This document shows positions 25,755 to 63,011 of a stretch of DNA of 64,000 bases, piece after piece. Positions within the stretch are counted from its first letter, which is position 1, and every line of letters begins with the position of its first letter. Position numbers and translations under genes: made by a program. The notes under the pieces are model-generated. The model made no database searches and had not been told where the DNA came from. It worked only from the letters and a program-made list of their open reading frames with translations. The stretch is taken from the NCBI RefSeq assembly GCF_037975245.1, contig NC_092575.1, forward strand, positions 22,376,841 through 22,440,840, written 5' to 3'. Source of the DNA: Apostichopus japonicus (taxonomy: Eukaryota > Echinodermata > Holothuroidea > Aspidochirotida > Stichopodidae).

Positions 25755-25826
25755 AATTCGTAATAACGAGTTATTAATTCGTCATAACGAGTTATTAATT
25801 CGTAATTACGTAATTCGTAAAAATAT
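25755..25826. repeat. AT-rich palindromic array (attcgtaattacg type)
   Basis: Three repeats of ttaattcgta/tcataacgagt, then aattcgtaattacgtaattc. It directly follows the MITE at 25395-25752. Confidence 0.75.
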
Positions 25827-25866
25827 GTTTTGTTTGGCACTATTCGAGTAATGGGCTTTCATATTG

Positions 25867-26105
25867 TGGAGTGTTAGCTCAGTGGTTAACGCCGGTGCAT
25901 TCCAATCGTAAGGTCCCCGGCTCGAGTCACTCCAAGATAAATATATTTGGTCCAGTTACAGAGTTGTTGACAATTCATAATCATGGACCGGTTAAATATG
26001 AATGTAAGAGACTGACTTCGGTCAGCTGCGGCTTTGATAAGCCAATGAGGCTTCTTCGCGAGTTCCTGCTTGCAGGAGGACCAAAAAAAAAATACAAATA
26101 CATAC
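25867..26105 (+). mobile_element. tRNA-derived SINE, family 1, full length
   Basis: The head ggagtgttagctcagtggtt followed by ggtccccggctcgagtcac resembles tRNA A and B boxes. The body and gcaggagg tail match 7290-7517 and 45547-45770. It ends in an A-rich/ATAC tail. It is not a functional tRNA: the arms do not pair into a cloverleaf. Confidence 0.87.
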
Positions 26106-26261
26106 TTTTCCACTGACTGTTTCTTGTGTTTTTATTGGGCCGCCTTCATACTTACACTATCGCCTTACTGGCAACTATCCATAGAGCAGAATATATTCTG
26201 CTCTAGGCCTATGTATGCCACTATCACAAATTGACATTGTTCAGCTACTTTCAATCCATCT

Positions 26262-39500: not shown

Positions 39501-42500
39501 TGATGAAATGAAATCAGAACCAGGATTGCAGTTTATAATTCACATTTTTCTGTAGAAATATTACTGAATGGCTTGTAGCTTACACTAGACTTATAGAATG
39601 AAACTGATTGTTTTTATGTTTTTCATCTTTTAAATAAATGAGCAAATAAATGCAAGCAGGGGCGAAAACTGGGTGATCCAATGGAGGGGTGGAGGGGTAG
39701 GAGAGGAGTGGAGGGGTGAGGTAGAGGCCTGTTTGGTGGTTTGATTTTGTACCTTCAGTCAGGGAAGAATTATAGCACTCTTTAGACAAGGTTCTTGTAC
39801 CTCCCTTACCAAAATGCCAGATCTGGGCCAGATATAAAAATTCCGGATCTGGACCAGATCTGCTCCAGATCTATAATTTATATCTGGCCAGAAAAAAATG
39901 GGCAGATATAACTTGATATAAAATGAAGTTTTATATGGCCCAATTAAAATTCTATTTGGTTAAATTTTATTGCATCCATATCTGAGCCAGATAAAGCTTT
40001 ATCTGGTTGATATAAAGAAAATCCAGATAAACTTTTATATGGCCCATATAAAATTTATATGGTTGAAGTTTATGGCTTTCATATCTTGGGTAGCTACCCA
40101 AATCAATAGGGTGAATTAAGAATTTACACCTTCCCCTTTCCCCTGCCACATTTGAAATCCTGTAAACGTCACTGACTGTGAGTTTGTTACAATAATGTTG
40201 CAATAGCTCTTTCGTTAATGGTCCAGCCTCGATAATTGTTTGCTTCAATATTGTGACAAATTTCTCATAGGTGACCCAGGTGTAGCCTAACTTGACATAA
40301 AATTTTAAGACTCAAACTTATTGCTGTCATCCAATGATAATTGCTAAGAGAAATTACCCAAGACAGAGGTTAGGTGCAAAAACCAAAAAACCAACTGTAT
40401 AGCCTTGTCCCCTTACATGTAACCATGTGACCATATGACAATGTTACATCAAGTCAAGTATAACAAGTCCCTTTGATAGGGAATAGATACTACACATGAT
40501 ATTGGTCAAGAGTTCTTGATTAATGAACATCCTCATAAGCAAACTTGCTGTCCCGGATGTGTAACTTAATCCTGGTCATTAGTAACTTGTCATGCCTACA
40601 CACCAAAGTGTGCACAATTCAAACAATCTCTCCTGGGGCACCACAGTGCACCACAGCCATGTGTCCCCTGGGGGACTTCCCATAGGGTGCAGCCACAAAC
40701 CGGCGCACGCAACTATATTTACAAGTCACCTCGCAAGTCCCCATTTATACACCTGGGTGAAGAGAGGCAATGGAGATAAAGTGCCTTGCCCAAGGACACA
40801 ACGCAGTGACCTTGCCAGGGCTCGAACCTGTAATCCTTAGATCACAAGTCCACTGCCTTAACCACTTGACCAAAATGCCCTCTTGGGGAGTGATTTAAAC
40901 TGTGTATCATGATACTGTTATTAAATGATGAGGCAAAATTACTCAGCTAATTGCACCACTTTGTGTTTTAAGAAAGTACTAGAAAATGCTAGAATGTACA
41001 GTAATAACCTATAAAAATAGTGAGTAGATTTGTGTTATGTTAACAAGTTAATACATTCAAGATACTTTTAATTATGATTTTGATTACAGATATTTTGAAC
41101 TTGGTTTTGAAATGTTTGAATTTGTTTGAAATAGAATCAAGCATTACAGACTTTGTTTGTCAAGACTGAGTTCATTGTGACAGCTAGTTGTTCTGCTTGA
41201 CTCACATTAACTTTAGATTTGTTTCGCTGTGTTTGTGTAGGTGGCTTCTTCAGATGCTACCAACATAAGGTCGGAGATCAGGCAAGACGGTGACGATTAT
41301 GTCCTCAATGGCAGGAAGTGGTGGACCTCTGGTGCACTTCATCCTCACTGCAAACTATGCATATTCATGGGGAAGACAGACACTACTGGGGAGACACATA
41401 AACAGCAGTCAATGATTTTGGTTCCCATGGAAACGACAGGTGTCCAAATTTTGAGGCATTTGACAGTATATGGTTACGACGATGCCCCCGAGGGGCACGG
41501 AGAGGTCTTGTTTGATAACGTCAGAGTACCAGCAAGTAACATTCTGCTCGGTCCTGGGAGGGGGTTTGAAATAGCACAGGTAAATATACCGAAAGTAACT
41601 ATAGTTTGGGAATGGTAGTCATACACTTTATAAGCACACCAGGCCAGCTATGTGTTTATACTGTAATTGGTATTCTCAACATGAAAATATCAAAGCAGTA
41701 TTCCCTTGAGTGTAAAAGATACCTTACTCTGGTGTTAACATTAACGTATAGTGGTGCATCTCTTCATTAAATACATATTTTCTGTGAAGGTTATGTAAAA
41801 GTTACTGAATAGTGACTAATTACAGCCTGTAGTTGCTACCATTTTGGCCTAATAAACTTTCCCTCTGAGTTTCCTGTATTGTGGACACAGGTTACTTTGC
41901 TAAGTTGATGACTATTTGTCCTACTCTTGGCCAATATCATTGGTGAGTTTGGTATATATGTAGATAATGTAAGTCTTGTGTTGAAACAAAACTGGAAATC
42001 AAGTTATTTGTGGTGGAATCTTACTTTCACTCTGCAGCAATGGAAGAAGAATTTAGTATGCCACAAATGGTCCATCTCTGCTCACTATAAAGGGACAATT
42101 ACTGGACCTTGAATCAGTGCCACGAGAAACCGTGGTCTTTAATTGGCATTAACTTTGAAACACCGTTTTGTCTAAAGCTTTACAGTTTTCTTAATATATA
42201 TTAACCATATCTCGTTAAAAATAATCTTTCTCCTCTTTGTTAAACTTTTCATCCTCTTTGATTATCACAGGGTCGGTTAGGACCTGGCAGAATTCATCAC
42301 TGTATGCGGCTCATAGGTATGGCAGAGAGGGCGCTAGACACTATGAAACTTCGGGTAAATAATCCATTTCATTCTTTTACGTCTTCCTAGGATTTCTTTG
42401 TCCAGATTTGTTTCTCCTCCACAAATTTAAAATAAGTTTAACATTCACCTAATTTACAAAATCAAAGGAAACTTGTGCGTTTCAAATATTGTGCCATATC

Positions 42501-44787
42501 AAAGTCAGGAGTTTTGTAGTGTGAATACGTAGAGGACATGAATGTGGTTCCTGAACTGACCTAAACATCCAGAGTGTCAGTCTCTTGCTTAAAGGGTGTG
42601 AAGACTTGCGCAAAAAGAAACGTCTAATGCCGGTAATCTGACCTAGTTTCGAATGAGGTGTAACAGAAGTGTTAGACATCACCATCGATCCCAGAAAATA
42701 CACACACAGTTTGCTAACGTCGGTAAGTAGACTTTAGTGTACAGTCAGTACACAAGCTGCAGTCAATACCCACAGCACAGTGTATAAACGATACAGCGAT
42801 GCACATCTCAGGTCCAGCTAAAGATAACAAGGTATCACGTTTCATTGCTTGTCTGCATTTTGTAGCAACACGAACAAAACGTCACTTGCGAGCAACAGAT
42901 GGCCGCACGCGGTTTGGGGCGAGTCTTCAATGCCTTTAAAGTTTGATAATAATTCAGCAAATCCATAAAACGTTGTATTGAAGTACTTGGAAACTTTTAA
43001 GAGGAATATTTAGTAGATTTGAGTCTTATTCTTATTCAGTGTCTTGTTTACAGGTACCCAACATTCCTTGCTCATGAATCGATTCACTATAAACTGTTGT
43101 ATTGGTGGTGGAGGAAGGGGCTTGGTGACTGATAAACTCTTTACTGTAGCTTCATACTTTCTAATGCCAGGGGTGTCAGATCCACTAGAAGAGGATGGTT
43201 GGCCGGGGGGAGGGGGATATATGCTCCCTTACCCACTTTTGTCAGAACCTTAGAAACACTGTTTTCATGTCTTGTTTTGTTACTTTGAAGTAATATTTTT
43301 TCATTTTCGTAAGATGATTCATGTTGTTAGGAATACTTCAGGTCATTCTGTGAATTGTCTCCTCAAATCAAAGTTCCCCTCCCCCTCCCCACAGATTCAG
43401 TCCTCTTCTGCCATCCTTCCTTCATACACTTTGCACGATGATAGCATTGCAATTCGTTAGTCTTCTTAACCATCTCAACAGGTCAATGAGAGAGTTGCGT
43501 TTGGTAAGCTGTTAGCAGAGCAAGGAACCATTCAAGCAGACATAGCTAACTCTAGGATAGAGATAGAGCAGGCACGACTCCTGACACTCAAAACAGCACA
43601 CATGATGGACACTGTTGGCAATAAGGTACTGTCTCTTTGAGGCTTAAGCAGTATTGTAACATGTCCTGACTAAGTCATTGACTTTTCAAAGTGTGAATTG
43701 ACTCCAAAATGTTTGTGAAATTTTTCTCCATTGAGATAACACACTATATGAGTGACTGGAATCAGTGACTCAATTTGAGTCGGAAAAAAGTCACTGATGA
43801 AGTGGCTGGATGCGACCTCTCAGTTTAAGTAAATCAAAATGTCCAGTATCAACTGTTATGGCAATTTCTATTTGTTCATGTTTCTTGCCATGTATGTAAA
43901 CAATATCCTATTTTGGAGTTGAGACTGAGTACAAACAATTTGTATCATTTGCTTCTAGGTCCTGTCTATTGCATTTGGGAAGTTGCTGACAGTTTTGAAA
44001 TTATATGAATATAGTCATTATTTTCTTAATTTATAAGAATAAAAATAGAAAGAATTTGGGGTTATAAACAAAATCTGTTTGTTTGGATAGTATCAGCAGC
44101 TTTTGATAAAAAAGGAATCCTTTTTAACACTTTTTTCTTGGTCAATAGTTCTGTAAGTTCTGCTTTATTTTGAAACTCAATAAATGATAAATACGAAACA
44201 GACCAAGAAGCTGCTGATAAATTTTGAACGAGCAAAATATCTTTGATTAACTTGGGATTTGATGTAGTGAACTGATTCACACAGTATTTGAATTAAAATA
44301 TCTTTTTTATCAATATTTTTATAAATTTTTATAATATTTTTTAAATATTTTATATTTTTATATTTAAATTTTATATTTAAATAGTTTTAAATAAAAATTT
44401 ATAATTTTATAATTTTTATAATTTTTATAGTTTTTATAATTTTTAATTTTTAGAATTGAAAAACAAATTATAAATAAAAAAAATACTATATTTAAATATG
44501 TTTTATAGAATTTTTATAAATTATTATAAATATTTTTTGATATATTTTTTATTTTGTAGGTTGCAGCTCCAGAGATTGCAATGATCAAGGTGATCGCCCC
44601 CAACATGGCTCTCAACGTGATAGATAGAGCTATGCAGGCTCACGGTGGGGCCGGTGTATCTGCAGACGTACCCCTAGCATCCTTCTTCGCCTGGGCCCGA
44701 TGTCTCAGGCTTGCAGACGGTCCCGATGAGGTCCACAGGAGGTCCATAGCTAGGATAGAACTGAAAAAGCTAACGGCGAAGAAGTGA
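27560..44787 (+). CDS. ACAD10: Acyl-CoA dehydrogenase family member 10 (HAD-APH-ACAD fusion)
   Basis: Seventeen coding exons: 27560-27797, 28509-28657, 29437-29631, 31052-31210, 31860-32230, 33452-33633, 34187-34337, 34944-35086, 35626-35799, 36401-36610, 37065-37231, 38365-38505, 39222-39359, 41241-41579, 42271-42354, 43482-43625 and 44560-44787. Total 3213 nt, 1070 aa (human about 1059). Residues 1-57 are basic and look like a mitochondrial presequence. The HAD-like domain follows (VIFDMGGV at 62-69, [11 protein letters not shown]). An APH-type kinase domain then has HGDFRVDN at 478-485 and DWE at 500-502. A full acyl-CoA dehydrogenase domain runs from about 660 to 1070, with [14 protein letters not shown] near 800 and [12 protein letters not shown] near the end. 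By family knowledge, ACAD10/11 phosphorylate 4-hydroxyacyl-CoA and the dehydrogenase domain then removes the phosphate for beta-oxidation. The HAD motif lacks the second Asp, as in human. Confidence 0.97.
29684..30039 (+). mobile_element. TTAA-type MITE, copy 2, in ACAD10 intron 3
   Basis: Preceded by ttaa at 29680-29683. It starts aggcactgaagactcgcccc and ends gcaagtcttcacaccc, so the ends are inverted repeats (TGAAGACT-GC). The right ttaa is no longer present. It is collinear with the three other copies. Confidence 0.85.
32165..33200 (+). repeat. Tandem array duplicating the end of ACAD10 exon 5 with its splice donor
   Basis: Copies of catgaaggccttaggggacc start at 32165 (the real exon), 32289, 32401, 32525, 32649, 32772, 32896 and 33020. 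A degenerate ninth copy is at 33141. The period is about 124 bp, with one 112-bp unit. Each unit holds the last ~65 bp of exon 5, the donor cag|gttagt and ~58 bp of intron. The third copy has a damaged donor (agagg). Confidence 0.95.
34495..34755 (+). mobile_element. hAT-type MITE with 8-bp target duplication, ACAD10 intron 7
   Basis: Starts cagttgcgtagcgagg and ends cttggctacgcgcctg, giving a CAG-start inverted terminal repeat. actaatac flanks it directly on both sides (34487-34494 and 34756-34763). It is 261 bp and non-coding. Internal blocks (gcgccaccatgggtttg, tgacacttcccaggccttgt) define the family also seen at 2566 and 22250. Confidence 0.85.
39815..40080. repeat. Self-complementary ccagatataaa/tttatatgg island
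   Basis: Dense short inverted repeats: ccagatataaa and tttatatctgg, plus ttttatatggccca and its complement. A perfect 20-bp palindrome, ccagataaagctttatctgg, lies at 39987-40006. It is in ACAD10 intron 13 and does not look coding. Confidence 0.8.
40598..40887 (-). mobile_element. tRNA-derived SINE, family 2
   Basis: On the minus strand it begins ttttggtcaagtggttaagg (A box), followed by caggttcgagccctgg (good B box). Next comes the tgtgtccttgggcaaggcac core, seen widely in marine-animal SINEs. It lies in ACAD10 intron 13. Confidence 0.8.
42593..42935 (-). mobile_element. TTAA-type MITE, copy 3, in ACAD10 intron 15
   Basis: Bounded by ttaa on both sides (42589-42592 and 42936-42939). The left end is agggtgtgaagacttgcgc; the right end read inward is aggcattgaagactcgcc. 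This is the cleanest copy, 343 bp. No coding potential. A TTAA target and AG-starting ends suggest a Kolobok- or piggyBac-type parent. Confidence 0.87.
44283..44552. repeat. Almost pure A/T low-complexity tract
   Basis: About 270 bp made of ttttataattttta-like words with only a handful of G or C. It fills the last part of ACAD10 intron 16, right up to the acceptor of the final exon. Confidence 0.9.
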
Positions 44788-45136: not shown

Positions 45137-45546
45137 GTTTATTGGCCCCGAATTTTAGCAATCTACAAAAAGAGCATATTTACTGATAATTCTAGCTATG
45201 TACTTCTATGACACCCAACTGTAATATGAAGTACCACTGCCATGTTTCTATCAAAGGGCTCATTCTGATATAATGTCATTTTTTTTTTTTTTTTTAGCCT
45301 ATGAAGAAGATCCTGCTAGGATCGAAACGTCAGGCCAACTTACTTTTATATATAATTTGAGGTGAAGAGTTGTTTAATCCTGAAATTGTCATATTCTGAA
45401 ATAAATAGGTGGATTCCTTTGCACAAGCTAAACAATGCAATCCAGTACATTTATCCACAAGTGAACAATATCAAGTTCTTGCTTATTGTTGTCATACAAT
45501 TTATGGTAGGATTAAGCATTTAATTTAATTTGAGCATTTAATTATA

Positions 45547-45770
45547 GGAGTGTTAGCTCAGTGGTTATCACTTTCAATCATAAGGTCCCGAGTCCGAGTC
45601 ACTCCAAGATTAATGTATGTCGTCCAGTTACAGAGTTATTGACAATTCATAATCATGGACGTTAAATACGAATCTAAGAGACTGACTTCGTTCAGCTATT
45701 AGCTTTGATAAGCCAATGAGGCTTCTTCGCGAGTTCCTGCTTGCAGGAGGTTCTAAAGATACATACAATT
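45547..45770 (+). mobile_element. tRNA-derived SINE, family 1, full length
   Basis: The head ggagtgttagctcagtggtt and ggtcccgagtccgagtcac are followed by the shared body (gactgacttcgttcagct, gctttgataagccaatgagg) and the gcaggaggttctaaagatac tail. Confidence 0.85.
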
Positions 45771-46868
45771 TCCGACAAAATGGCGATATTTACTGCATCA
45801 TTTGTAAAGTTTAATGTGAACACCAACAAATCTGACTTTACTCAACATGTATTTTTGTGAGATCAATGGATTTCCAAAGTTGGAATATGAAAGTCTTTAC
45901 AAAACAATCATTTTTTTACTATTTAGGAACATACTTGTTCTGATTCACCCAAGCTTCCTTTAATTTTTCCTTTGTTTTGCAAAATTTCTGTCACTGTAAT
46001 ACAGAATATGTTCTTGTGCAAGATCTTGGTCAATGTTACCATTATTGCATTGTTTGCTACTTTAATAGATTTATACTTAAACTAATTAAAAGTTTGATTT
46101 TCTGCTGGTTATATCCCTCACTCAACCTCTCTCTGAGATGATATTTTTGCTAAAAACTTCAGTCATGTTGTATACAATTGATAATATATAATTATGTATA
46201 TAAAGATATATATATCTATATATATTACTAAATCTAGTGTAACTAGTCGCAGTTAGTTTCTGCTTAACAAAACACAAAAATTTATTCACATTTTCAGACT
46301 TATACATTATTTCTGCATTTGTCTCATCAGCAAAATCTCGGTAATGGTTTATTGAATTTTGGTATAACTTTGCTGTAAATTTTCAGTCATGCATTTGTTC
46401 CATCAGCAAAGTCTTGGTAATGGGTTTATTGAAATTATTTTTGTATAACTTTGTTGTAAATTTTTAGATATCATGTGGTTGTTTATTTCAGGAACTCATC
46501 ACAAGGTTCCATGGTAAAGTAAATCGTGATCTTGGACTAACAAAGCGCCTTTTTTCCTTCTATATATAACATAGTAATCACCCTCAGCAAAATTGTATTC
46601 AAACTTTTTGTTTGGTAAAATATTTATTGCTAGAGGTACTCGAATCAGAGTTGTAAACAAGTGACTCTATTTTAAATTAAGATCAAGTCGAGTTATTAGC
46701 AGTAACATTTTTGACTTGATTCCAGACAATTACTTCAATCACTGTATTATCTCTAATAACAAAAATTGACAAACTTTGTTAGTCAATATATATTTTGGGA
46801 ATTATTAGTGACCAGTTATGACTCGTTTTAACACTTGGTTTACTCCAAATAAAGTTGCAATTGCTTAA

Positions 46869-48339: not shown

Positions 48340-48915
48340 AGGTGGAATGTGCACCATATTGTTGTCATGTGATCTACATCTCCAATAAAGAGTTGCAGAT
48401 CACATGGCAATAATATGGTGCAGTCATGGTGCACATTCCACCCACCCATCTTATTGGAGATGTAGATCACATGGCAATAATATGGTGCAGGCATGGTGCA
48501 CATTCCACCCACCCATCTTATTGGAGATGTAGATCACATGGCAATAATATGGTGCAGGCATGGTGCACATTCCACCTACCCATCTTATTGGAGATGTAGA
48601 TCACATGGCAACAATATTGTGCAGTCTTGGTGCACATTCCACCCACCCATCTTATTGGAGATGTAAATCACATGGCAATAATATGGTGCAGGCATGGTGC
48701 ACATTCCACCCACCCATCTTATTGGAGATGTAGATCACATGGCAATAATATGGTGCAGGCATGGTGCACATTCCACCCACCCATCTTATTGGAGATGTAG
48801 ATCACATGGCAATAATATGGTGCAGGCATGGTGCACATTCCACCGACCCATCTTATTGGAGATGTAGGTCACATGGCAATAATATGGTGCAGTCATTGTG
48901 CACATTCTTCCCACC
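48340..48915. repeat. 67-bp minisatellite with an inverted leading unit
   Basis: The word cttattggagatgtagatca recurs at 48450, 48517, 48584, 48651 (with taaatca), 48718, 48785 and 48852, exactly 67 bp apart. Before the direct units, 48340-48388 carries the same sequence in inverse orientation (ggtggaatgtgcaccatatt...catctccaataa), making a large palindrome with the first direct unit. Confidence 0.95.
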
Positions 48916-49458
48916 CTTGATAACCACAGTAGTGAGTCCATCAATCTAAAACCACACTGACATAAACTAGCACATTCTTCTTCTACAACTTTTCTTTTGG
49001 CTTATTGCAGATGTCCGTGAATGCCATATTCCTTGAACAAAATTCACTCAGGCACAGAAGTGCAATTCTCACCCAAACAGTTATTTAAACCCAATCCCTT
49101 TCTTTGACTCTTGGTACAATAAACCATTTAGCTGCAAAATTTAACTTAAAGTAAACCCATGCACAATTTATGAATTTCCTGGCAAGGTTTACCTCCAGAA
49201 AATGTCTCTCTCTGGTCAATGCCCTTAGCTTTATTCACACAGCTGTGGAGGTGCACTGCCACAATTAATCATTCTACTTTATTTCTTTGGCTACTGTAAA
49301 CACTATCTTTTACATATTTTTTAGATAAATATTGTTATAGTTCAATATGGTACAAAAATTGATTTTAATGCTCATGTTGTACTAACTTATGTGAAATGGA
49401 TGCCTTTGTTTATCTAACACTAGAATTTACAAAGATGAAAAAGTAAATAAAGATATAA

Positions 49459-51221: not shown

Positions 51222-54200
51222 TCAGTTCCGAATCGGTGGAGTTGTGGGTGAGTCGCGGGGTGATGGAGTTCGCAAACCCTAAATAAAGGAAGGAGAAAAA
51301 AGAATTGACAAAGAACGAAAAAAAAAGTATTGAAATGAATACATCGGATTGTTGGACCCAGATGTTATGGATCTCTCGTCATTTTAAAGCAACTCTGTGC
51401 AAATCTGTTTTTACTGTTTTCAGGTTTTAAATGTATGAATATGAGACTTGGAGATCCCATTTTGAAATGATACATAAAAACCATGAGTCTCACAAACAAC
51501 AAACTGTGAGAATCGGCAGTAATGGCCCTATTAGTTCAATACTAAGTAATGGTTTTCACCATTATGTTACATATATATATGTACACTAGCATATATGCTA
51601 GTTGACAGATGTCCTGTTTAAATTATAAATTACACTCACCTGGAATTTCTTTCTCAGAGCCCTGGTCATGACTGGGGTCAGACCAGTCCCTTCGTCTCTG
51701 AAAGCCCTGCGCATCGGTGTCCCCCCTGGACTCCGGGCGACATGGACCTTTCGGAGCTGAGTTCTGAATTGAAGAGCCTCTTGAGATATCCTGTTTGGAA
51801 AAACAAAAGGCAGTCTGAGATATCCTGTTTATACAGAAACCAGGGTGACAACCATGTCAGTGGTGAATTGTCAAGTAAACCAAATTAAAATCCAGCACAA
51901 AGAGTTTCTGAGAGCAAACACATTGTTACCACATACCTCTGTTTTTATGTGTGTACTGTAAACCACCATTCAGTACAGTTATTGTGGTTGTTTACATTTA
52001 GTGTTCAACCGCAAGCTGAAATAATTATTTTTTGACTTTACTTGAACACGATGAAAAGTACTGAAAATTTATGAACTAACTTGTGGCCAAAGAAAAATAA
52101 TCTTTAAATTGTAAATGAGTGGAAATAATCATTGCTCTTCAAGGAGGAACTGATTTTAACATCTTCCTCAACTCACCTATTTCTTAAAACCATCTTTGGG
52201 TTAAGATTCTCAGCATCAGAATTTGTAGTTCTCTTCAATCGAAACGTTTGTAAATCTGAAAGAGATACAAGTGGTCCTCCAATCGATGGCTTTGCCTTCT
52301 CTCTCTGGTAAGGGAGAAAAAACAAATGTTGATATTGTTTACATTTTTATTATTAAAATTCTATGGAAGACAAGTTCAGCATCCAGTGGTAGTTCTCTGT
52401 TATTTTTTCACTGGAAGGAGGAGGGCGGGGACAGGAGGATGAGATGGTGCTGAATGACATTACCTGCCCTAAAATGTAATTGTTATCTCCCACATCAAAT
52501 ATTGATTCCCATATCCTATCTCTTCAATTTCAAGCTGACTTTTTACCCTTGGAGGCAGCAAACATCTTCTTCTAAAAATTTCTCACAATCTCACATAAGC
52601 AGAGCATCATTTGCATATTGCCTCAAGTATGTGTCTTGACAGTTATGTAACTTTACTTTCAACCATACAATACAGGTAAGGTATTATTGTTTTATTATTG
52701 TTGTTATTATTGTTGCCCGTTCCCTCCCCAACAAAGATATAACTTTGTCACAAGAAAAATATTTGTGTTCCATGAAATAAATTTGTAGAAATATGGAACA
52801 AATTTGGTACTTCATTGACCTGTTTTAAAATTCTTTGAATATTCATTTCTAAGCAAAGAAGGGAAGTTTTTCATCCAAAAGTATAATCATATCATGGAAA
52901 TGAACAGGACTGGAATCTGCTTTTGCCTTAACACATCTGTGCAGACCTTAATATGGAATTATTTACCTGGCATTGTAATTGCAAATCGCTATCATTGGCA
53001 TTGCTATGCAAACTGTGCAAACTGCTATACAAGTGCAAAGATATGCAGTAGTTCTTTTGCATAGAGTAACCGAAGTATTTTATGTGATACAAAGTCTGGA
53101 GCCTTCAAAACTGCTGCACAAAATTTGAACACTAAATTATTCCCTGCTTAAAGGCGATCACTTTGAGTTAGCATTTTCTAACATTGCCTAGGTCTAGTGT
53201 GGAAAATAATGACTAAAGTTGTTCTTTGAAGACGATACACCCCAGGCTTTGCGAATACTGGTAAAATATACCTGCCAGAGGACTAAGACCCATAGGAATA
53301 GGAGGCGGAGGGGGGCTGCAGCCCCCCAACCAAATATTTTTTGTAAAAATTAGGGCGATATGCTGGGCACCTACCTAAAGAAATATAATTTGGAATGTGT
53401 TTTTCAATGGTTAAACTGATATTATTATTATCATTATTATTGTACCGACTTCCCCAACAACGATAACTTATATGGAAGGGTAATAACACAGCAAATGATT
53501 GTACGGTATTGGCATGCAATGTAATAACGGATGAATGCGAATATGATATGCACATTAAGAAGTCCAAATTTTGGTTATATTTTTTGGGCAAGTTGTTACA
53601 GCCCCCCCAAATCAAATTGATCTCCTACGCCTACGCTAAGACCAACCTTTTCTTGGGTTTCTGATGCCTTTCTGAGTTTGACATTCTGAATGTCTTGTAA
53701 GGTCACCCTCTGAGGAGCTGATGACTTTGACTGAAGTAAAAAAAGACAGAAAAAGTAGAAATAAACCAAAAAGTAAACAGGTATAATAATTCTTTGCCAC
53801 ATTTAATATGAGAATATTTGATAATAGAGCACTTTACATTAGGTTATTCACAGTTGCACTACTGATGACAACAACTTCTTGCACAACTTTGGATCTATTA
53901 TTGTTAAGAGTTCATCCAAGCTTTCACTTTGGAGTTTATATCATGTATCCAAGGTTTTCAGACTTAGACCAATGTTGACCTTGGACCTCCACATGAAGCA
54001 ACTAGGGATTTTGTACTAACTATACAGATCAACCGACCAAGTATGAAGTTTATCCAAGCATTGCTGCTGGAGCAACAGTTTCCTGTTAGCTTCAACTGAC
54101 CTTTCACCCCATATAAAATTAACTGGATGCACGTATTCAGTAAGGTCGAGTCATATATTAAGCATGGTGCTAATGCAGGCTTCATTTTATTGAGTGACGT

Positions 54201-55907
54201 TTACAAGGATTGAAGGATAAGAACTTAACCTCTGTTCACACCAGATGACCTTTAACCTGTGTCACAAAACTGATAGGCTTCATGTACTCACAAAGTTGTT
54301 CACACCACATTATGAAGTTAATGCAGGACCTTATGGGCATTGGTCCTTCATTTGTGAGAGCTCTTCTAATGTGGTCTTAGAACATTTTATTACCACTTAT
54401 TGATACTGACGTGAATAAGACAACAAGTGATTCAAAATTGTTTAAAAGGTTATCAAGACAAAAATGGAGCTACCATACCTTATCTTCATTGTCTCTTTTC
54501 TTTCGTACTATATTCAGTTTTCTTGGTCCCTTGGATAGTAGGGATGGAGGAAGGGGAGGTGGGGGAGGAGGAGGTGGGGGAGGAGGTGGTGGGGGTGGAG
54601 GGGCAACCTGTGGTCCATCTGGTACAGCAGTATTCCCTGTGACTGGTTCACAAGCCTGCAATTGGTTGGCAGAGTTTTGGCTAGTACTGTGAAAATTGCA
54701 CTGACAGCAATTTGACTTGTCTCTTGTTGGCAAGGCAACAGATCCCTGAGATGAAAAAAAAGAAGAGATAGGATTTGATAGATTGTAGTGTTGTAGTAGA
54801 GAATTGCAGCAAAAATGTAAACCAAATTTGCAGTTCCTAGTCTGCTTCTAAAGTTTATAATTCAAACATGTATATATTCATTTCATATACATCTTTTGAT
54901 AAATGATTAATGCACCTTGTTCTTTAAGTTTGGCCAATTTTGGGTTTTGTTGCATATTAAAACATTCATTTTGTTTTGTTAGGCTGATGGTGTATAATTA
55001 CTGTGTCAGGTTAAGTGTCTGACCAAAGAAAATTTCAGCCTCATAAACTGAACAATTGTTACGAAAATTACATTAAATTTGCAGAAAAACTCACATTTTG
55101 TCTTTTACTTTGCTCCGCCTCTGTCTTGAGACGCTCCACCTCTTGGATGAGTTTACTGAGTTGTTCTTGGGTAGCAGTGAGTTCCCGTTGGTAGACACGA
55201 GATGGGAACACCGTATCCTTGGCCATCTCTACACTCTATGAGGGAAACAAAATATTTGTGATAGGAAAGGGAATGCTGGACACAGAATAAAACAGATTTA
55301 AATTTAAGGACAGACGATATAACTTCCAACATGTTTTCTTCTGAAAAGATAAAGAAGATTATTTATTACCTTGCTAAATTTGTCCAAGCACCATCGGCAA
55401 GCACCAAACATCGATGTCGGTAGTTTTAATAAAGTGGATTCATCTCTTTTACCGAGCCACCAACTGACATCCACCGTAGGGAAAGAAAATGGATTCCGAC
55501 TATAAATACTAAGGTCCTCCACTCGCTCTACAGAACCTGACCTTCTTCTACACCTTCAGAGAAGAGAGAATTTTATTATTTGTTAAGATATAGATCAGTA
55601 TTTTTTTTAATTATTTTTTTTAAATTAAAAAATAAATAATAAAAAAATAAAAGATATAGATCAGTATATAATCACACAGAATGATATCATGAACTCCATT
55701 TCTTTTCTTTGTTTTAGTTCATAGCACATACCTTTCACTACTGCAATTATCCTCAGAGTATGAGAGCATCTGAATTGTTTGATTGTGGTCTCTCTGTCTT
55801 GATTTATGACGCCTTCTCTTAGCCCATCTTTCTAGCTGGACGTCTGCTTGTCGTCGCTTTCTACTGGACTGGCAAGATGATTTCTGCTTGTGATTAGGTT
55901 TTGCCAT
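51222..55907 (-). CDS. PRR11: Proline-rich protein 11
   Basis: Eight coding exons on the minus strand: 55732-55907, 55370-55553, 55095-55235, 54479-54745, 53647-53730, 52177-52304, 51640-51790 and 51222-51278. Total 1188 nt, 395 aa (human 360). It is recognised from ordered matches to human PRR11: a very basic N-terminus ([20 protein letters not shown]), [14 protein letters not shown], and a coiled-coil-like helix ([19 protein letters not shown]). Then come a C-C-x-C segment, a 16-proline run ending [21 protein letters not shown] and [14 protein letters not shown]. The C-terminal [14 protein letters not shown] plus [17 protein letters not shown] is almost as in human. Human PRR11 is a cell-cycle protein linked to S/G2-M progression and mitosis. 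An acceptor (ttcacag) lies 11 bp before the ATG, so a non-coding 5' exon must exist upstream, toward SKA2. All phases agree. Confidence 0.93.
53291..53635 (-). mobile_element. hAT-type MITE beside the PRR11 exon 5 splice donor
   Basis: Flanked on both sides by ctaagacc (53283-53290 and 53636-53643), an 8-bp target duplication. Ends are cataggaataggaggcgg and gatctcctacgcctacg. Its sequence matches the copy at 22606-23030 in reverse. One copy of the duplication overlaps donor positions +4 to +11 of PRR11 exon 5. Confidence 0.85.
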
Positions 55908-56392
55908 TTTTTTAAAAACTGTGAAAAATAAAGCAGACTTTACAATTAGTTTATAAATGCAAATTTGTAAGAAAAAGAGGGAGGGCAAATTATAGAAAAA
56001 AATTAACTTACTACTAAAATATGAGCATTAAAGTAGGTCCCCGATTACGGGCAGTGACATGGTTGGGTTTTGCAGTAGTACTGTAGAGAGATTTGACAGG
56101 TCTACATGATATGGTATAACTATATTAAGGGTGTAAATTCTAACTTTGGGTTTACTAGGGCTTCGGGCAAGGCTTGGTTCAGCAGTAAGAGTGTCCTCAC
56201 AATCCTTACGTTCCAAAAATTCTGCCAGGAGCCAGATTCTCTATTCAAAAATCGCTGCCATGCAGTGGAGATGTGCGGAGTCTTCTGTGGATTTGGTACT
56301 TCTGGTTTTTGAAATTGGGAAATGGGGTTTTTCTGTTCTTTAGTAGTTTATGAAACAACTTTGTTTGTCATGGCTGCACTGCAGCGATGTCG

Positions 56393-56620
56393 AATGGGGT
56401 GCCTTTGCCTACCTCAGATTTGAGAAAGTGGTCAGATATGCTGGGGTATACACTCTCATCCGTCAGATGGAGAGGTTAAATGGCGGTCCCGGGAGCAGGA
56501 ATGGGAGCGAATTCACACCCCTGCCTCGTTATCCTTTGAACACTTATCGAAAAGAGAAGGCTTGAAATTAGCCAGTGTTCATCCACGATCTAACAGGGAT
56601 AGGCTAGGGTCTCAAAATAA
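56393..56620. repeat. Interspersed repeat in the PRR11-SKA2 gap
   Basis: Shares ggtgcctttgcctacctcag with 885-940, and cgaaaagagaaggcttgaaa plus gttcatccacgatc with 15395-15490. It links the two fragments into one family of at least 230 bp. Confidence 0.6.
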
Positions 56621-57118
56621 GCTATAGCCTAGTAATGCTTCCTGATCCTGGGTCTAAAATAAACTAACTAAACTACTAGACCTTCATGTACACCTATAGT
56701 GCAACATGAAGTGGCTATTGGCATGTACAAATCTGCAAATCTTTGTAAAATACAATCATCTTTATACATTTCTTACATACCAACTTCCCTCGGCTATAGT
56801 ATCTAGGCTAACGTCTAGGCTAAAGTTGTTTTATCAGTCACACTCTGAAAGTCTCATTCTCACTTGGTCAGTACACACAGTACACACTCAAACCCGAGCT
56901 AGCATAGGCACCTTATAAAATATCCTTTTCAGATGTACAACCTGATGAATTGGATCAACACTTTTTCCTCGATATAATGATGTCCGAAATTTGTGGCTTT
57001 TCGCTTATATTAGTCTCTGAAAAACAGCAAGTGTTCTACGATGTCAGCTGTGCAATTGACATCCATTATGTTTGAGTCTCTATTCTCAGTTTCAAGATGT
57101 GGTACATCATTTTCTGAG

Positions 57119-57123
57119 CCAAT
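57119..57123 (+). promoter_or_regulatory. CCAAT box (NF-Y type)
   Basis: gagCCAATcgg matches the preferred NF-Y context. It lies about 510 bp upstream of the SKA2 start codon. The human PRR11-SKA2 promoter is reported to be NF-Y dependent; use here is inferred. Confidence 0.5.
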
Positions 57124-57145
57124 CGGTGAGCTTCACAGAGATGAC

Positions 57146-57177
57146 GTACTCAACTAAAAACCGAGGAAGTTGAGTAC
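57146..57177. promoter_or_regulatory. Inverted repeat between the CCAAT and ETS sites
   Basis: gtactcaact at 57146-57155 and agttgagtac at 57168-57177 are perfect inverted copies with a 12-nt spacer. The left arm overlaps tgacgt (57142-57147), a CRE/AP-1-like half. Confidence 0.5.
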
Positions 57178-57189
57178 TGTGACCGTGAC

Positions 57190-57197
57190 CCGGAAGT
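57190..57197 (+). promoter_or_regulatory. ETS-like site ccggaagt
   Basis: A perfect CCGGAAGT word, common near the start sites of housekeeping genes. It lies about 70 bp after the CCAAT box. Confidence 0.45.
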
Positions 57198-57635
57198 TGT
57201 TTGTTATACACCGGACCGCTGTGTTTTGACTTTAGTTGAGGACACACTGTAGTACCGTAATTTCTTTTTAGTTTTTGAGACAATTCAGCATTGACCGTTT
57301 TATTTAAAAGATCACGATTTCTACAAGAATATAGTCAACATTCTGGTAGTCTTTCGGAAACAGCATATCGTTATTTTTGTAGGTGGAGCGTAAATATGAC
57401 TGATTTTATATAGGCCTAAGCCTACTGTAGTGTAACATTATACAAAGATTAGGTTCGGCCTAACAATAATTCATTCAGTTTCCCACACTACACAACGAAT
57501 AAATGAGACAATCTCTACATACTGTAGCATTATTGAATGAGCATTGAGCTATAAACTAAACATCTGTGTTTAAATGAGATCTGTATCTTCTCCCCGTAGC
57601 TACTGTACTTTAAATTAAACGTTCTTGACATCAGC

Positions 57636-60600
57636 ATGGCAGAACATGAACTTGAATCATCAGTGGAGAAGATGGAAGCCATGGTATGTGATTAAAATTT
57701 TCTCTGCATTTGAAATTCACAAATGATGGCAGCATGTAGGCTACCATAAGCAGTGAGCTCCCTGCTATAATGTTGAAACACAACCTATAGCTATACAATT
57801 TTAAACATAACATTTTGCCAAAGTGTGTAATATTATACTTAAGGACTAAAGGAGTGTTGCCGGTGCCTTTCAAAGGACAAACTAAAACGAATGACCATTG
57901 ACTTTGTACAGGGTTAATATTCATTCGCGAATGACAACGGTGGTGAGGAGAGATAGAAAGATTAACGGAGTGGAGTAAATGCGGTTATTGGTTTTCTGCG
58001 CAAAAATGATTTGAGGAAAATCGCATGTTACGTGGTTGCAGGTTTTTGGTGTAATTTACGGATAGAAACCACAGGGAAAGTTTTTGTGTGAGAATGCGCT
58101 TGAGTGCTGTGCTTTGACATTTACCTCTGTAGATTTATATAGAAAGATAACTGAAGTAATTGTTAGGTGCAGGCTAATTGGTATGTTTGAAACTGATATA
58201 TCCACGATTAATTTGGGTGGAAAATGCTATGATATCGTACTATTAATACTATTATTACTGGGCAGTGCCATTTCCGGCGATCTAGGAGGTACTTTTAGCC
58301 AACAATTCTTTGCTACGCATCAACCTGTGGTGGCGCATATAGCGATAAAATAGTGTCACAGATTTGTGGGCCCGGACCGGTCACCACACTTTTGCCACGG
58401 CAATTTCAAACACACAATCTGCCCCGTATTTATAATATTTATTACGTTAAGATGTTATATGCCCCCCCATTATAAAGGGCTGACTACGTAACTGCAAAAA
58501 TGATGTTAAATTAACTTTTTAAAATGAGACTTACAATTTTGCTTACTACAGTATAAGGTGCGTTTGTATCTTGTCCGTACTTTACTAGATCTGTAAGCCA
58601 CGCACTTCGCATCCACTCTGTTTGTGTGGCTTTAATATACCCACTAAGTCTGAACTGTGATATCCGGTAGAAGCAAATGTCTGTGCTGTCATTCACTGTC
58701 ATTCGTTTTAGTCAACGCAATTTTTTAGTGTGTACAACATATTGTCATTCGTTATGTGTAACGCAATTGTCATTCGTTTTAGTAACACCCCCTTTCAACC
58801 ATAAGTTTGAGTCAATTCAAGATTAATGTATGTCGTCCAGTAACAGAGTTGTGGACAATTTATAATCATTGACGTTAAATATGAATCTAAGAGACAGACT
58901 TCAGTAAGCTTGCGGCTTTGATAAGCCAATGATGGCTTCTTTGCGAGTTCCTGCTTGCAGAAGGATCTAAAATACATACATACATACTTCAAAGAGAGGA
59001 AACTATTACAAAAATCCTGCATAGGTGAATATTTAGAAAGTGATAAATTTTAAGTAATATTTTTCTTGTCAGGAAAAATGTTCATTTTGTCTGTTGATGG
59101 TAATTGTCACTTGCAGTCATTAAGACATGTGCTTTTTGTCTCTGTGTGAGCCACTAATTGTGCATTAACATTTTCTCCATATAGAAGGAGCTTCTCTTGA
59201 AATATGCGTATATATATGGTTGTTGTATGTTTCTTTATTGAATGACTTCATGTGAAAGACTCAAATTTCCTTCTCACCATTTTACAGTTCAGCAAGGCAG
59301 ACAGCAACATAGAATACTTGTCTCGGAAGTTGAATGATGATTTCTGTCAAGGCATGGGTGAAGACTCAAGTGAGGTTAGTGAACCATACCCACAAATTCA
59401 TTTTCAGATGTAAATTAAGCCTTTCTTCAAATTTCTCTGCAAGAAAGTTAATTTGTGATTTTTGTTTTGTAATGTAACAACCAACCACAGAATCTTCCAA
59501 TACTAAAACATGGAAAGCAACATTAAAGCAAAACAGTACTTCCACATATTTGGTAGAAAGATAAAGAAAGGTGTCAGCTATGGATAGTGAAAACATATCC
59601 CTATTTCTGCCACTCTCAGGACATTTGCCAGACTGAAATAGTAGTTTTCTACTTTTGGACCCTTCTCAAAGCCTTTAAAAAGATAGTTTGTAGGGTTAAA
59701 ACTGTAAGTAATTTGCTTTTTGTCTGCAACTTTAACAAGTTAAACCTCTCAAGAAAGTGTAGCTTAATAGGTTTAGGCTAGATAGACTTATCTCCAAAAT
59801 TCACACCATAGCTCCAAGCATACATAATGATGACAGTATCAACAGAAACATGTTCTGTGTTCTGTGCCAATGGCAGAAATTTGACAAATCACTTGAAAAA
59901 CTTAAGAAAAGTAAGTTAATTCGAGGCAGTACAGCATGGTGTCTTACTGTAACTGTCTGTTAGACCGTTACAAAAGCTTTAAATTGTAGATTAATTTTAT
60001 TTCACTTTTCTGTCATTCAAAAAGGACCCCTGAAGTGATTATGTATTAAAAAAATGGTGTCTGGTTGAGAATTAGATGGCGAACCCTGATTGTTGCTTTA
60101 AAGATTAAAATCATAAACCATATTTTTTTATATTTACTCAGCTCTCGCCATTAGAGATGAAGAGAAGGTTGCAACAGGTTAAGAAAGAATTTAACAGTCT
60201 CCAGGACGATGCTGAGAGCATCAAGAAGGCCCAGGAGGAGATGATGTCGCAGTTTAAGAATCAGATCGTAGCAGCCAGTCAAGCTATCCAAAGACTCCAG
60301 ATTACCACAGGTCTTGATGTGAGTCGTACATGAATGTAATCTTTATATGCGTTACCTTGACATGCCTTGTGTCATAGTGTGACAGTATGCATGACCATGT
60401 GTTACCATGACATGCTTTGTGTTACAAATGCTGTTGTTTTTTTGAGAATACTGCATAGTTATGCCACCCTTTTATACTTCCAGTAGGTTCACACTAGTTT
60501 TCCAGTCTTGTACATTAACACATAGTTAATTACAAATGATTGGTAACAATTGTATACCAAAGTCAAGAGTCAAAATCTTTAAATCAGTGTTGTAGTGAGT

Positions 60601-63011
60601 CATGAGTCACATGACTAGGCTTAAACAATGAACTGAATCGAACAAGTTTGTCAGGTTCTTCCCCCGCAGAGATGATGATGCAGTGACTTGAATCGCAAAA
60701 TATTACCGTTAATGACTCGACTTGAAATTGGTATATTAAACCTTGTCACATTTCAGCTTTCAGTATTGGCTCCAATTGGAGTACGAAAATATTTGAAAAA
60801 TGCAGAAGAGGGTTATTGAAGTTCTTTAGATAAAAATCTTCATTTGTGCTAGTTGAAAACAAGCACTGAAAATGTACAGTGATAAGGAGAGATTTATTTG
60901 TATAACCAAATTAAGTGTGAAGAAATCAGAAATACAATCCCCCAAAAAAGCCAGTCTATCCCTAACTCACAATGTAACTGTGTTGGAAAACCTTGTTCAA
61001 TTTCCTGCGAACACACTTCCGATTTCCCGCCGGTGTTCGCGCAGCGAACATGCCGAGCACGCGTAGCATGCAAGCATAAAGGCGTGGGGTCCAGGGGCCC
61101 GTCTTAGGGCCCTGGTGGGATCAAGGGATGGAACCCCTTGTGGGGGTCCAGGGGGCAAAGACCCCGGAAAATTTTGGTATTTTTGCGTGTCTGGCGATAA
61201 AAAAAATCGCAGTTGAGGATGCAAAATACTGACAACTTTTTGAATTTAAATTGTCACGAAGCTGATGAAAATTTTAAAATGACAAGTTAGAGTAGCTATA
61301 TCATGTTATAAAATGAAAAGAGATTTAATCTGTCTTACAATCTTTAAAAAGTTTAACTTACAGAACTCCCGATATTATGAAACAAACAACGTTTGGCAAA
61401 GCCCCGTTTATAGACTGCCTAACAATGTATAGCGCACACTTTACGTACATCAGTTTACAACTGCAATACGGCCTAACCCTACTTAAATACTACGTTAGGC
61501 TACTATACATGTACTGCGAATTTTCCCAGGTGCCTTTCCAAACAACTGCGCGCTCATCCCCTGTCTAACACCTGTTTGTTAACATTTTTGGCAAGTTTCC
61601 AAGAAACGTTTCATGGAGTATTCCCCATGATACACGAGGCACAATCCATACCATACACGCAGCACATCGAGGCCCCACTAGCTATGGCCATCTTTATGAA
61701 AGTAAACCTTGTAATAAAATATGTTTTAGGCCACTTGGCATGAATAACTAAATGCTTAATATTATTTCCATGTTCTTGTAGAAAACATCAAGTTCGCAAA
61801 ATACGATTAGTTGTGTTTTTGTAGTTACGTGAGATCCGTAACCGACGAGGTGGTTAGGCTACTTGGTACTATGGTAGGATATTATTTTTTCTGTATTTTT
61901 GGAAATTCTAGAAAATACTTTCTTTTCCCCCCGCTGAACACCAGATGTGGTCTTACGGTTTATTCATAAATGGGTGTACTAGAGCCTTGTTTCCATGATA
62001 TTAGTTGCATTTAGCACGATATGCCAGTTTCGCGTGAATTTTTCGAAAGTGTTTTGCTGGATCTTTCATAAAATTTGAAATGTGTACCAACTTACTTTTC
62101 GTACACAATTGGTAATTTCTCTACTGATTTTCAGAGTTTTTTTTACAGTCAAGTTAATACGTTGTGCATTGAGTATAAACTTATCGCGAATGCAAGAAAA
62201 CGATGCGGGGATTTCCAGCAGACAAATGTTTTCTTTGCGGGATTACTGAGTCAATTGAAGGGAATCCCGCACATTAAAGGGAACACCAAATTGAAGTCAA
62301 ATTCATACGAAAGAAAACGTTTACTAACTAACATATAATATAAGTATAAAAAAAATGTGGAATGGCAATATTGTTCAAAACATTTCCCGCGAGGCTGATT
62401 TATTACAGCAACCTTCCCGCGCTGGGCCGTGTGTGTCCGTGTGACATTGCCCTTGTGAGTGGGTTGGGGACACATCATTACCCGTTATAGGCTATTGAGA
62501 CTAAAATTGCGAGCACGGTCTCTGGACATTTTTCTTTTGTTTCTGAAACTTTTCTTCTGAAATTTTCCTTATTGTTTTTACAGATGTACTTTTTTGCTCC
62601 TTCGTGTTTTTTTTTAAGTTTCGTCCCGCTTTTTTTTTTTCTTTTTTTTTTTCCCCGATTTTTTTTTTTTTTCTCCAGCCAGTCTGGATTTCCCGCGAGC
62701 ATCGCGGATTTCCCGCGAACCTGGTTCGGAAGGTTCGCAAGGTTTTCCAGCCCTGCAATGTAACTCTAAGCATCATCAAGGTTTGATGAAAAATTGAAAA
62801 TGACCTTTATAATTTTGTTTTCTGTTTATCATTTTAAAACTGTTTTGATGATGATTCACAGTGTGAGGACAGTAAGGATCAGCAAGCAGCCATTGAATCA
62901 TTGCTAGGAGTAAAACTCCCATCGACTCCTGCCATCTCATCTCCGTCTCCACAAACTGAAGGGAGCCCTTCAGAACATCAGAGTCCTGAACAGGTTAGAG
63001 GAAAAACTTAA
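57636..63011 (+). CDS. SKA2: Spindle and kinetochore-associated protein 2
   Basis: Exons 57636-57683, 59288-59374, 60142-60318 and 62862-63011 (TAA at 63009) give about 153 aa; human SKA2 has 121. The alignment is clear along its length: ESSVEKMEAMFSKADSNIEY against the human VDKLELMFQKAESDLDY region, then LSRKLNDDF. Exon 3 gives a long coiled coil (LSPLEMKRRLQQVKKEFNSL, then AASQAIQRLQITTGLD). Family role: SKA2 pairs with SKA1 and SKA3 in a coiled-coil complex that holds kinetochores on microtubules. The C-terminal tail in exon 4 is Ser/Pro-rich (SSPSPQTEGSPSEHQSP) and longer than in human. cag|gttaga at 62993 could be a weak donor to a further exon; otherwise the frame stops five codons later. 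Confidence 0.92.
57851..58790. mobile_element. Inverted-repeat DNA element in SKA2 intron 1
   Basis: actaaaacgaatgaccattg at 57881-57900 has an inverted copy at 58764-58783 with one mismatch. More copies of gtcattcgtt lie near 58690-58760. Inside is a reversed hAT-like fragment (about 58255-58494). No target duplication was established and no transposase was seen. Confidence 0.55.
58255..58350 (-). mobile_element. hAT-like repeat fragment, reverse orientation
   Basis: Contains cagtgccatttccggcgatc followed by gctacgcatcaacctgtggt, the reverse of the signature in the elements at 4608 and 34495. It lies within the element at 57851-58790. Confidence 0.5.
58790..58985 (+). mobile_element. SINE family 1, head truncated
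   Basis: Body from aagattaatgtatgtcgtcc through gctttgataagccaatgatg to gttcctgcttgcagaaggat, with an (ATAC)n tail. It lies in SKA2 intron 1. Confidence 0.8.
60978..62755. mobile_element. hAT-like element, 1.8 kb, with 8-bp target duplication, SKA2 intron 3
   Basis: Ends are ctgtgttggaaaaccttg and, read inward from the right, cagggctggaaaaccttg. caatgtaa flanks it directly on both sides (60970-60977 and 62756-62763). The subterminal regions are GC-rich with tttcccgc motifs. Lys-rich/poly-T frames near 62480-62780 are composition artefacts. No transposase was recognised, so it is probably non-autonomous. Confidence 0.8.

Follow-up and report, generated by a model that had tools for sequence, protein, structure and literature searches.

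A head-to-head PRR11–SKA2 gene pair with a candidate shared promoter in a probably non-vertebrate genome

Results

The 64-kb window, i.e., the whole stretch of DNA that was analysed, carries a PRR11-like gene of eight coding exons on the minus strand (55907-51222; 395 aa in the gene model) and a SKA2 gene of four coding exons on the plus strand (57636-63011). The two genes stand head to head with their start codons 1,728 bp apart, and both models remain in frame throughout, with GT-AG introns. The original prediction had named PRR11 and SKA2 from readable exons, placed them in divergent orientation and put 1.7 kb between the start codons; all of this agrees with the gene models, the Pfam and PDB searches and the comparison with a presumed human PRR11 sequence. 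According to a simple estimate assuming 15,000-35,000 genes, two named genes would become 5'-to-5' neighbours by chance with a probability of 1.4e-5 to 3.3e-5. The features of the locus are collected in Table 1.

Table 1. Features of the PRR11–SKA2 locus (positions in the window)
Feature	Position	Strand	Remarks
PRR11 coding exons 1-4	55907-55732, 55553-55370, 55235-55095, 54745-54479	-	gene model
PRR11 coding exons 5-8	53730-53647, 52304-52177, 51790-51640, 51278-51222	-	gene model; stop included
Likely PRR11 splice acceptor ttttcacag	55927-55919 (entry 55908..55927)	-	11 nt upstream of the start codon
NF-Y box AGCCAATCGG	57117..57126	+	sole full RRCCAATSRG match in the 1,728-bp spacer
CRE/ATF half-site TGACGT	57142..57147	+	one of 13 in the window; weak by itself
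Perfect 10-bp inverted repeat GTACTCAACT / AGTTGAGTAC	57146..57177		arms 12 nt apart; inside the interval from NF-Y box to ETS site
ETS site CCGGAAGT	57190..57197	+	sole exact one in the window
CpG-retaining block, proposed core of a shared promoter	57101..57400		observed/expected 1.13 (window median 0.41), not unique because 48 of 1,274 overlapping 300-bp blocks reach it
SKA2 coding exons	57636-57683, 59288-59374, 60142-60318, 62862-63011	+	phase 0 joins, all four

The SKA2 protein comprises 153 aa if the last exon runs to the TAA at 63009-63011; the gene model itself ended at 62993, and the extension to the stop at 63011 was taken from reading the sequence. A donor-like site at 62994 makes an additional SKA2 exon possible. 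A profile check suggested with the original prediction succeeded for this protein and failed for its partner, which found no match in Pfam. SKA2 residues 7-114 of 153 align with positions 1-106 of the 110 in PF16740 (E 8.7e-20, 71 bits against a gathering cut-off of 30.1), the sole family exceeding its cut-off among the 24 listed. A member of this family is expected to join SKA1 and SKA3 in a complex located at kinetochores. In the PDB, the solved SKA2 4aj5, which we take to be the human protein, was matched with E 1.8e-8 and the next of the 15 sequences listed with E 0.095. Identity to the PDB chain covers 29 of 111 residues (26%), and the local score of 128 compares with a maximum of 56 in 1,000 shuffles. 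Known RNAs were sought in the SKA2 intron because its human counterpart presumably contains mir-301a and mir-454. Rfam at gathering thresholds returned none there, its one weak tRNA match being located elsewhere, and ARAGORN (bacterial code) found zero tRNA.

The identity of the minus-strand gene rests on comparison with a presumed human PRR11 sequence (360 aa), whose length agrees with that given in a PRR11 review. With proline runs masked, BLASTP aligned the model with this sequence at 124 of 372 identities (33%; E 4e-30, with this one sequence as the database), and the local score reached 294, whereas 1,000 shuffles gave at most 63. The similarity runs along the length of the protein and stays collinear down to the C-terminal SPGGTP and a further block; the model also has a KDTVFPSR block. 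According to the review, PRR11 carries an NLS, a zinc finger domain and two regions rich in proline; by eye the model offers a basic N-terminus, a CCQC cysteine cluster and one clear poly-proline run, a second proline-rich region not being obvious. That the gene encodes a different proline-rich protein draws on the presumed status of the human sequence and on the family models: Pfam listed two families, both far under cut-off and neither of them PRR11. The PDB likewise gave no PRR11 match, and its five sequences under E 0.001 were all UBR4, covering the stretch with the proline run. Identity of 33% across 372 columns despite the masking, the distance from the shuffled scores and the presence of SKA2 as the neighbouring partner make this alternative highly improbable. 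A text search of the available papers with five peptides from the presumed human sequence found none of them. A scan of prokaryote and viral contigs with the PRR11 model gave 28 and 3 pattern matches, respectively, and zero confirmed relatives; such contigs are not animal genomes, and the scan is therefore uninformative on the spread of PRR11.

The likely splice acceptor just ahead of the PRR11 start codon implies at least one non-coding first exon, which would lie nearer to SKA2. Donor scoring for such an exon left the best three candidates (56412, 56863 and 56209; scores 3.06-5.12) indistinguishable. The scoring used approximate splice frequencies, and the models' own donors, at 1.23-9.03, span these candidates.

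The spacer between the start codons contains one of the seven full RRCCAATSRG matches in the window, and from this NF-Y box (57117) to the ETS site (57190) there are 73 bp, both lying in the CpG-retaining block of Table 1. When the spacer was dinucleotide-shuffled 3,000 times, a full NF-Y box never came within 100 bp of an exact ETS site, a figure that is optimistic because the pairing was noticed prior to testing, among 19 patterns. With a looser ETS pattern the combination occurred in 0.13% of shuffles, and 4.6% contained the box when NF-Y was the sole requirement. CCAAT cores as such are at background (4 observed, 3.73 expected). No counterpart to the second NF-Y site in the human core promoter was found in the spacer: the other cores (56314, 56717 and 56949) lie at least 170 bp away and their flanks do not match the full NF-Y pattern. 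Among other patterns sought in the spacer, CHR sites were not enriched (TTTGAA 3 observed, 3.59 expected), E2F patterns were missing (0.14 and 0.35 expected), MYB-type YAACNG was rarer than expected (1 against 5.32), and Sp1, NRF1, YY1, E-box, CDE and TATA patterns were absent or around background. CpG retention stronger than in the block of Table 1 (1.52) is seen at 57900-58099, within SKA2 intron 1. This block, the counts for CHR, E2F and MYB patterns, the single full NF-Y site and the background level of CCAAT cores speak against a shared promoter. The spacer contains a plausible NF-Y promoter and would fit a shared one.

To the left of the pair, CCT zeta and an ACAD10/11-like enzyme were identified. 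The Pfam scan to the left of 51.3 kb, on both strands, took in 28 of the 36 listed ORFs of at least 90 aa, ten ORFs of at least 60 aa between 45.9 and 50.8 kb and two shorter ones. Among the ORFs scanned only CCT, APH and acyl-CoA dehydrogenase were matched, with zero matches for the ten at 45.9-50.8 kb; at this coverage a gene with short exons may be missed. Neither CCT zeta nor the ACAD10/11-like gene stands in the human 17q22 gene list printed in one passage, where the row reads ...PPM1E, TRIM37, SKA2, GDPD1, SMG8, PRR11, CLTC...

Discussion

In human, these two cell-division genes form a bidirectional transcription unit at 17q22 that is, according to PMC5372550, NF-Y-driven and p53-repressed. 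Among the matches listed, the literature on the pair deals mostly with human cancers, and no paper on the pair outside vertebrates was found.

The locus points to an old pairing. Its origin before vertebrates hinges on the window being non-vertebrate, which is likely on sequence grounds. Were the DNA to come from a vertebrate, e.g., a jawless fish, the pair would be just the known vertebrate arrangement. One CCT zeta exon is identical at 54-56 of 81 residues (67-69%) to three PDB zeta chains, whereas these chains share 77-78 of the 81 (95-96%) with one another. Together with the 26% identity of SKA2, this is low for a vertebrate, and we regard such an origin as improbable. Still less credible is that PRR11 and SKA2 became adjacent independently here and in vertebrates: nothing was found in its support, and the identical partners in identical orientation carry a chance of about 2e-5.

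We favour, with a probability of about two in three, an orthologous head-to-head PRR11–SKA2 pair inherited from an ancestor common with vertebrates and kept for a shared promoter. A single promoter at about 57.1-57.3 kb would most likely start both genes. NF-Y at 57117, aided by an ETS factor at 57190, would open the chromatin, and polymerase would start both ways: to the left it would read a non-coding first exon of PRR11, joined by splicing to the exon starting at 55918, and to the right it would enter the exon with the SKA2 start codon. The genes would then be co-expressed. Retention would then be for co-regulation: with both genes depending on a single promoter, a rearrangement that parted them would deprive one gene of its control, and selection may act against separation. 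We hold more tentatively, at somewhat below even odds, that an NF-Y-driven bidirectional promoter already existed in the ancestor that vertebrates share with invertebrate deuterostomes, and that the need for it held the pair together while its surroundings were reshuffled.

The ancestral pair could also have been retained passively, because the genes lie close together and the region rearranges slowly; each gene would then have its own promoter, and the two would not be co-regulated. The 1.7-kb gap has room for two promoters, and the background level of CCAAT cores and the second CpG-rich block are in keeping with such an arrangement. Yet the genes identified on the left differ from the human list, as far as that is printed in the source, while the pair was kept, and the compact NF-Y/ETS block occurs once in the spacer; passive retention appears rather unlikely, though by no means negligible.

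Should the pair be shared with an invertebrate, co-regulation of the two genes would be a long-standing part of the mitotic programme and not something peculiar to mammals or tumours. The role of PRR11 beside a kinetochore subunit could then be tested directly in early embryos of that animal, and the pair would provide a clear test case for shared promoters protecting gene pairs against separation.

Head-to-head pairs have been described as ancient, their separation being under negative selection in vertebrate evolution. The present pair has the divergent orientation in common with them. The published pairs belong to vertebrate evolution, whereas this one is probably non-vertebrate; they are delimited by transcription starts (TSS) within 1 kb, whereas here the gap is known between ATGs. 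This ATG gap exceeds the 1-kb TSS limit, an observation that counts against a shared promoter. With the human unit the locus shares both genes, the head-to-head orientation and a CCAAT box in the spacer. In PMC5372550 the human genes are likewise head to head, and their core promoter of 80 bp holds two NF-Y sites, whereas here one full NF-Y box is accompanied by an ETS site and also by a CRE half-site. The genes identified on the left are ACAD10/11-like and CCT zeta as opposed to those printed for human 17q22. The pair is a further instance of an arrangement already known in human.

A divergent PRR11–SKA2 pair

The reading of both strands across 51222–63011 gave two gene models with back-to-back start codons, 1,728 bp apart. 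The minus-strand PRR11 model has 8 exons with in-frame joins and GT-AG introns and encodes 395 aa, and the plus-strand SKA2 model has 4 exons, all joined in phase 0. The last SKA2 exon is open as far as a TAA at 63009–63011, giving 153 aa; the alternative is splicing at a donor-like sequence at 62994. The exon models bear out the original prediction of PRR11 and SKA2 as divergent, head-to-head genes with a 1.7 kb ATG gap.

Of the two proteins, profile searches recognised SKA2 only. Its model scored 71 bits against the SKA2 family of Pfam (cut-off 30.1; E 8.7e-20), each of the 23 other Pfam families listed stayed below its own cut-off, and the top PDB match was SKA2 (entry 4aj5, E 1.8e-8; second-ranked 0.095). 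The score of 128 exceeded the maximum of 56 in 1,000 shuffles, with 29 of 111 aligned residues identical. The Ska complex is described as present in most Metazoa and Viridiplantae (PMC5579357), and SKA2 in an invertebrate is therefore expected.

The PRR11 model had no PRR11 match in Pfam, where the 2 families listed were both far under cut-off, or in PDB, where all 5 sequences at E <0.001 were UBR4 chains, matched along a segment containing the proline run. It was therefore compared with a human PRR11 sequence not drawn from a database record, whose 360 aa equal the length stated in a PRR11 review. With proline runs masked, BLASTP against this reference aligned 372 columns at 33% identity, with E 4e-30 for a database of one sequence. 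Its local score was 294 versus a maximum of 63 in 1,000 shuffles, and the conserved blocks follow the same order. Judged against this undocumented human sequence, the case that the minus-strand gene is PRR11 appears strong.

By a simple estimate, the chance that two named genes lie next to each other, 5' to 5' and on opposite strands, is ~2e-5, and common ancestry of the arrangement explains the head-to-head order better than chance by far. The pair in this window is real and modestly surprising.

The spacer as a candidate shared promoter

A likely splice acceptor 11 nt upstream of the PRR11 start codon suggests that the gene has a non-coding first exon closer to SKA2, in which case the start sites can be nearer than the ATG gap; donor scores did not single out one such PRR11 exon. 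Both genes would start from a CpG-retaining block near 57.1–57.3 kb, where NF-Y with an ETS partner would drive them, and this common promoter element may hold the genes together.

Among 19 patterns tried on the spacer, one full NF-Y box (RRCCAATSRG) was found, AGCCAATCGG at 57117, along with an exact ETS site, CCGGAAGT at 57190, the sole one in the 64-kb window. CpG observed/expected is ~1.1 in 57101–57400 versus a CpG-depleted window median of 0.41, a level matched or exceeded by 48 of 1,274 overlapping blocks; it is higher still (1.52) at 57900–58099 within SKA2 intron 1. Dinucleotide shuffles of the spacer (n=3,000) contained a full NF-Y box in 4.6% and an exact ETS site in 2.2% of cases. 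The two lay <=100 bp apart in 0 of 3,000, and an NF-Y box together with a more permissive ETS pattern occurred in 0.13%, figures that are optimistic because the pairing was spotted before being tested. Counting against a shared promoter, the spacer shows no excess of CCAAT cores (4 observed, 3.73 expected) or TTTGAA (3 versus 3.59), fewer MYB-type sites than expected (1 versus 5.32), no E2F pattern and nothing to match the human core's second NF-Y site.

Between the NF-Y box and the ETS site lies a perfect 10-bp inverted repeat (57146–57177), perhaps a dyad for protein binding, perhaps a chance occurrence.

Neighbouring genes and repeats

Genes and exons in the window
Feature	Position	Strand	Basis
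CCT6 / T-complex protein 1 zeta exons	9846–15199	minus	Pfam; 2/3 exons vs PDB
ACAD10/11-like gene	~31860–44784, perhaps from 27476	plus	Pfam, PDB
HAD-like first exon of ACAD10/11-like gene	27476		by eye; no Pfam match
APH (phosphotransferase) exons of ACAD10/11-like gene	31860, 34936	plus	Pfam
Acyl-CoA dehydrogenase middle domain exon	41241	plus	Pfam; ACAD11 top PDB match
Acyl-CoA dehydrogenase C-terminal domain exons	43470, 44560	plus	Pfam
PRR11 model	55907–51222	minus	exon model
SKA2 model	57636–63011	plus	exon model; Pfam, PDB

Left of the pair, Pfam identifies exons of two genes, one a CCT (TCP-1) gene and the other ACAD10/11-like. Both CCT exons compared with PDB were closest to CCT zeta chains; a zeta exon is 67–69% identical to three mammalian chains, which are 95–96% identical to one another. 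This distance argues against a vertebrate source, though it singles out no phylum. Among 40 left-flank ORFs, 8 had Pfam matches, all to CCT, APH or acyl-CoA dehydrogenase families, and 32 had none, including all 10 at 45.9–50.8 kb.

A tandem array of 7.9 copies, with a 67-bp period and 95% matches, lies at 48390–48916 between the ACAD-like gene and PRR11. A short dispersed repeat, perhaps a SINE-like element, occurs at ~25814–26113, ~45534–45814 and ~58925; translations of the first two share FDKPMRLLREFLLAGG, and those of the last two GFFASSCLQ. A weak Rfam tRNA match (40807–40879, minus, 31.9 bits versus a cut-off of 29), not called by ARAGORN, is perhaps a tRNA-derived repeat.

Comparison with the human pair

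The human 17q22 row printed in one passage (... PPM1E, TRIM37, SKA2, GDPD1, SMG8, PRR11, CLTC ...) is without CCT6, ACAD10 and ACAD11, whereas such genes lie left of the pair here; the comparison covers the left side, as the window stops just past SKA2. Within the visible DNA, the pair is conserved and the left flank is changed relative to human. The pair being kept while the left flank was not argues, thinly and from one flank in one species, for a cause specific to the pair.

Among the literature matches listed, which cover few subscription papers, there was no report of the pair beyond vertebrates. The head-to-head layout of genes is reported to be an ancient one that vertebrate evolution has conserved (PMC7817982). 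The human promoter is reported to be repressed by p53 via NF-Y (PMC5372550; see also PMC7833434). The same genes lie head to head in human and here, with one full NF-Y box in the sea cucumber spacer as against two NF-Y sites in the 80-bp human core promoter (PMC5372550).
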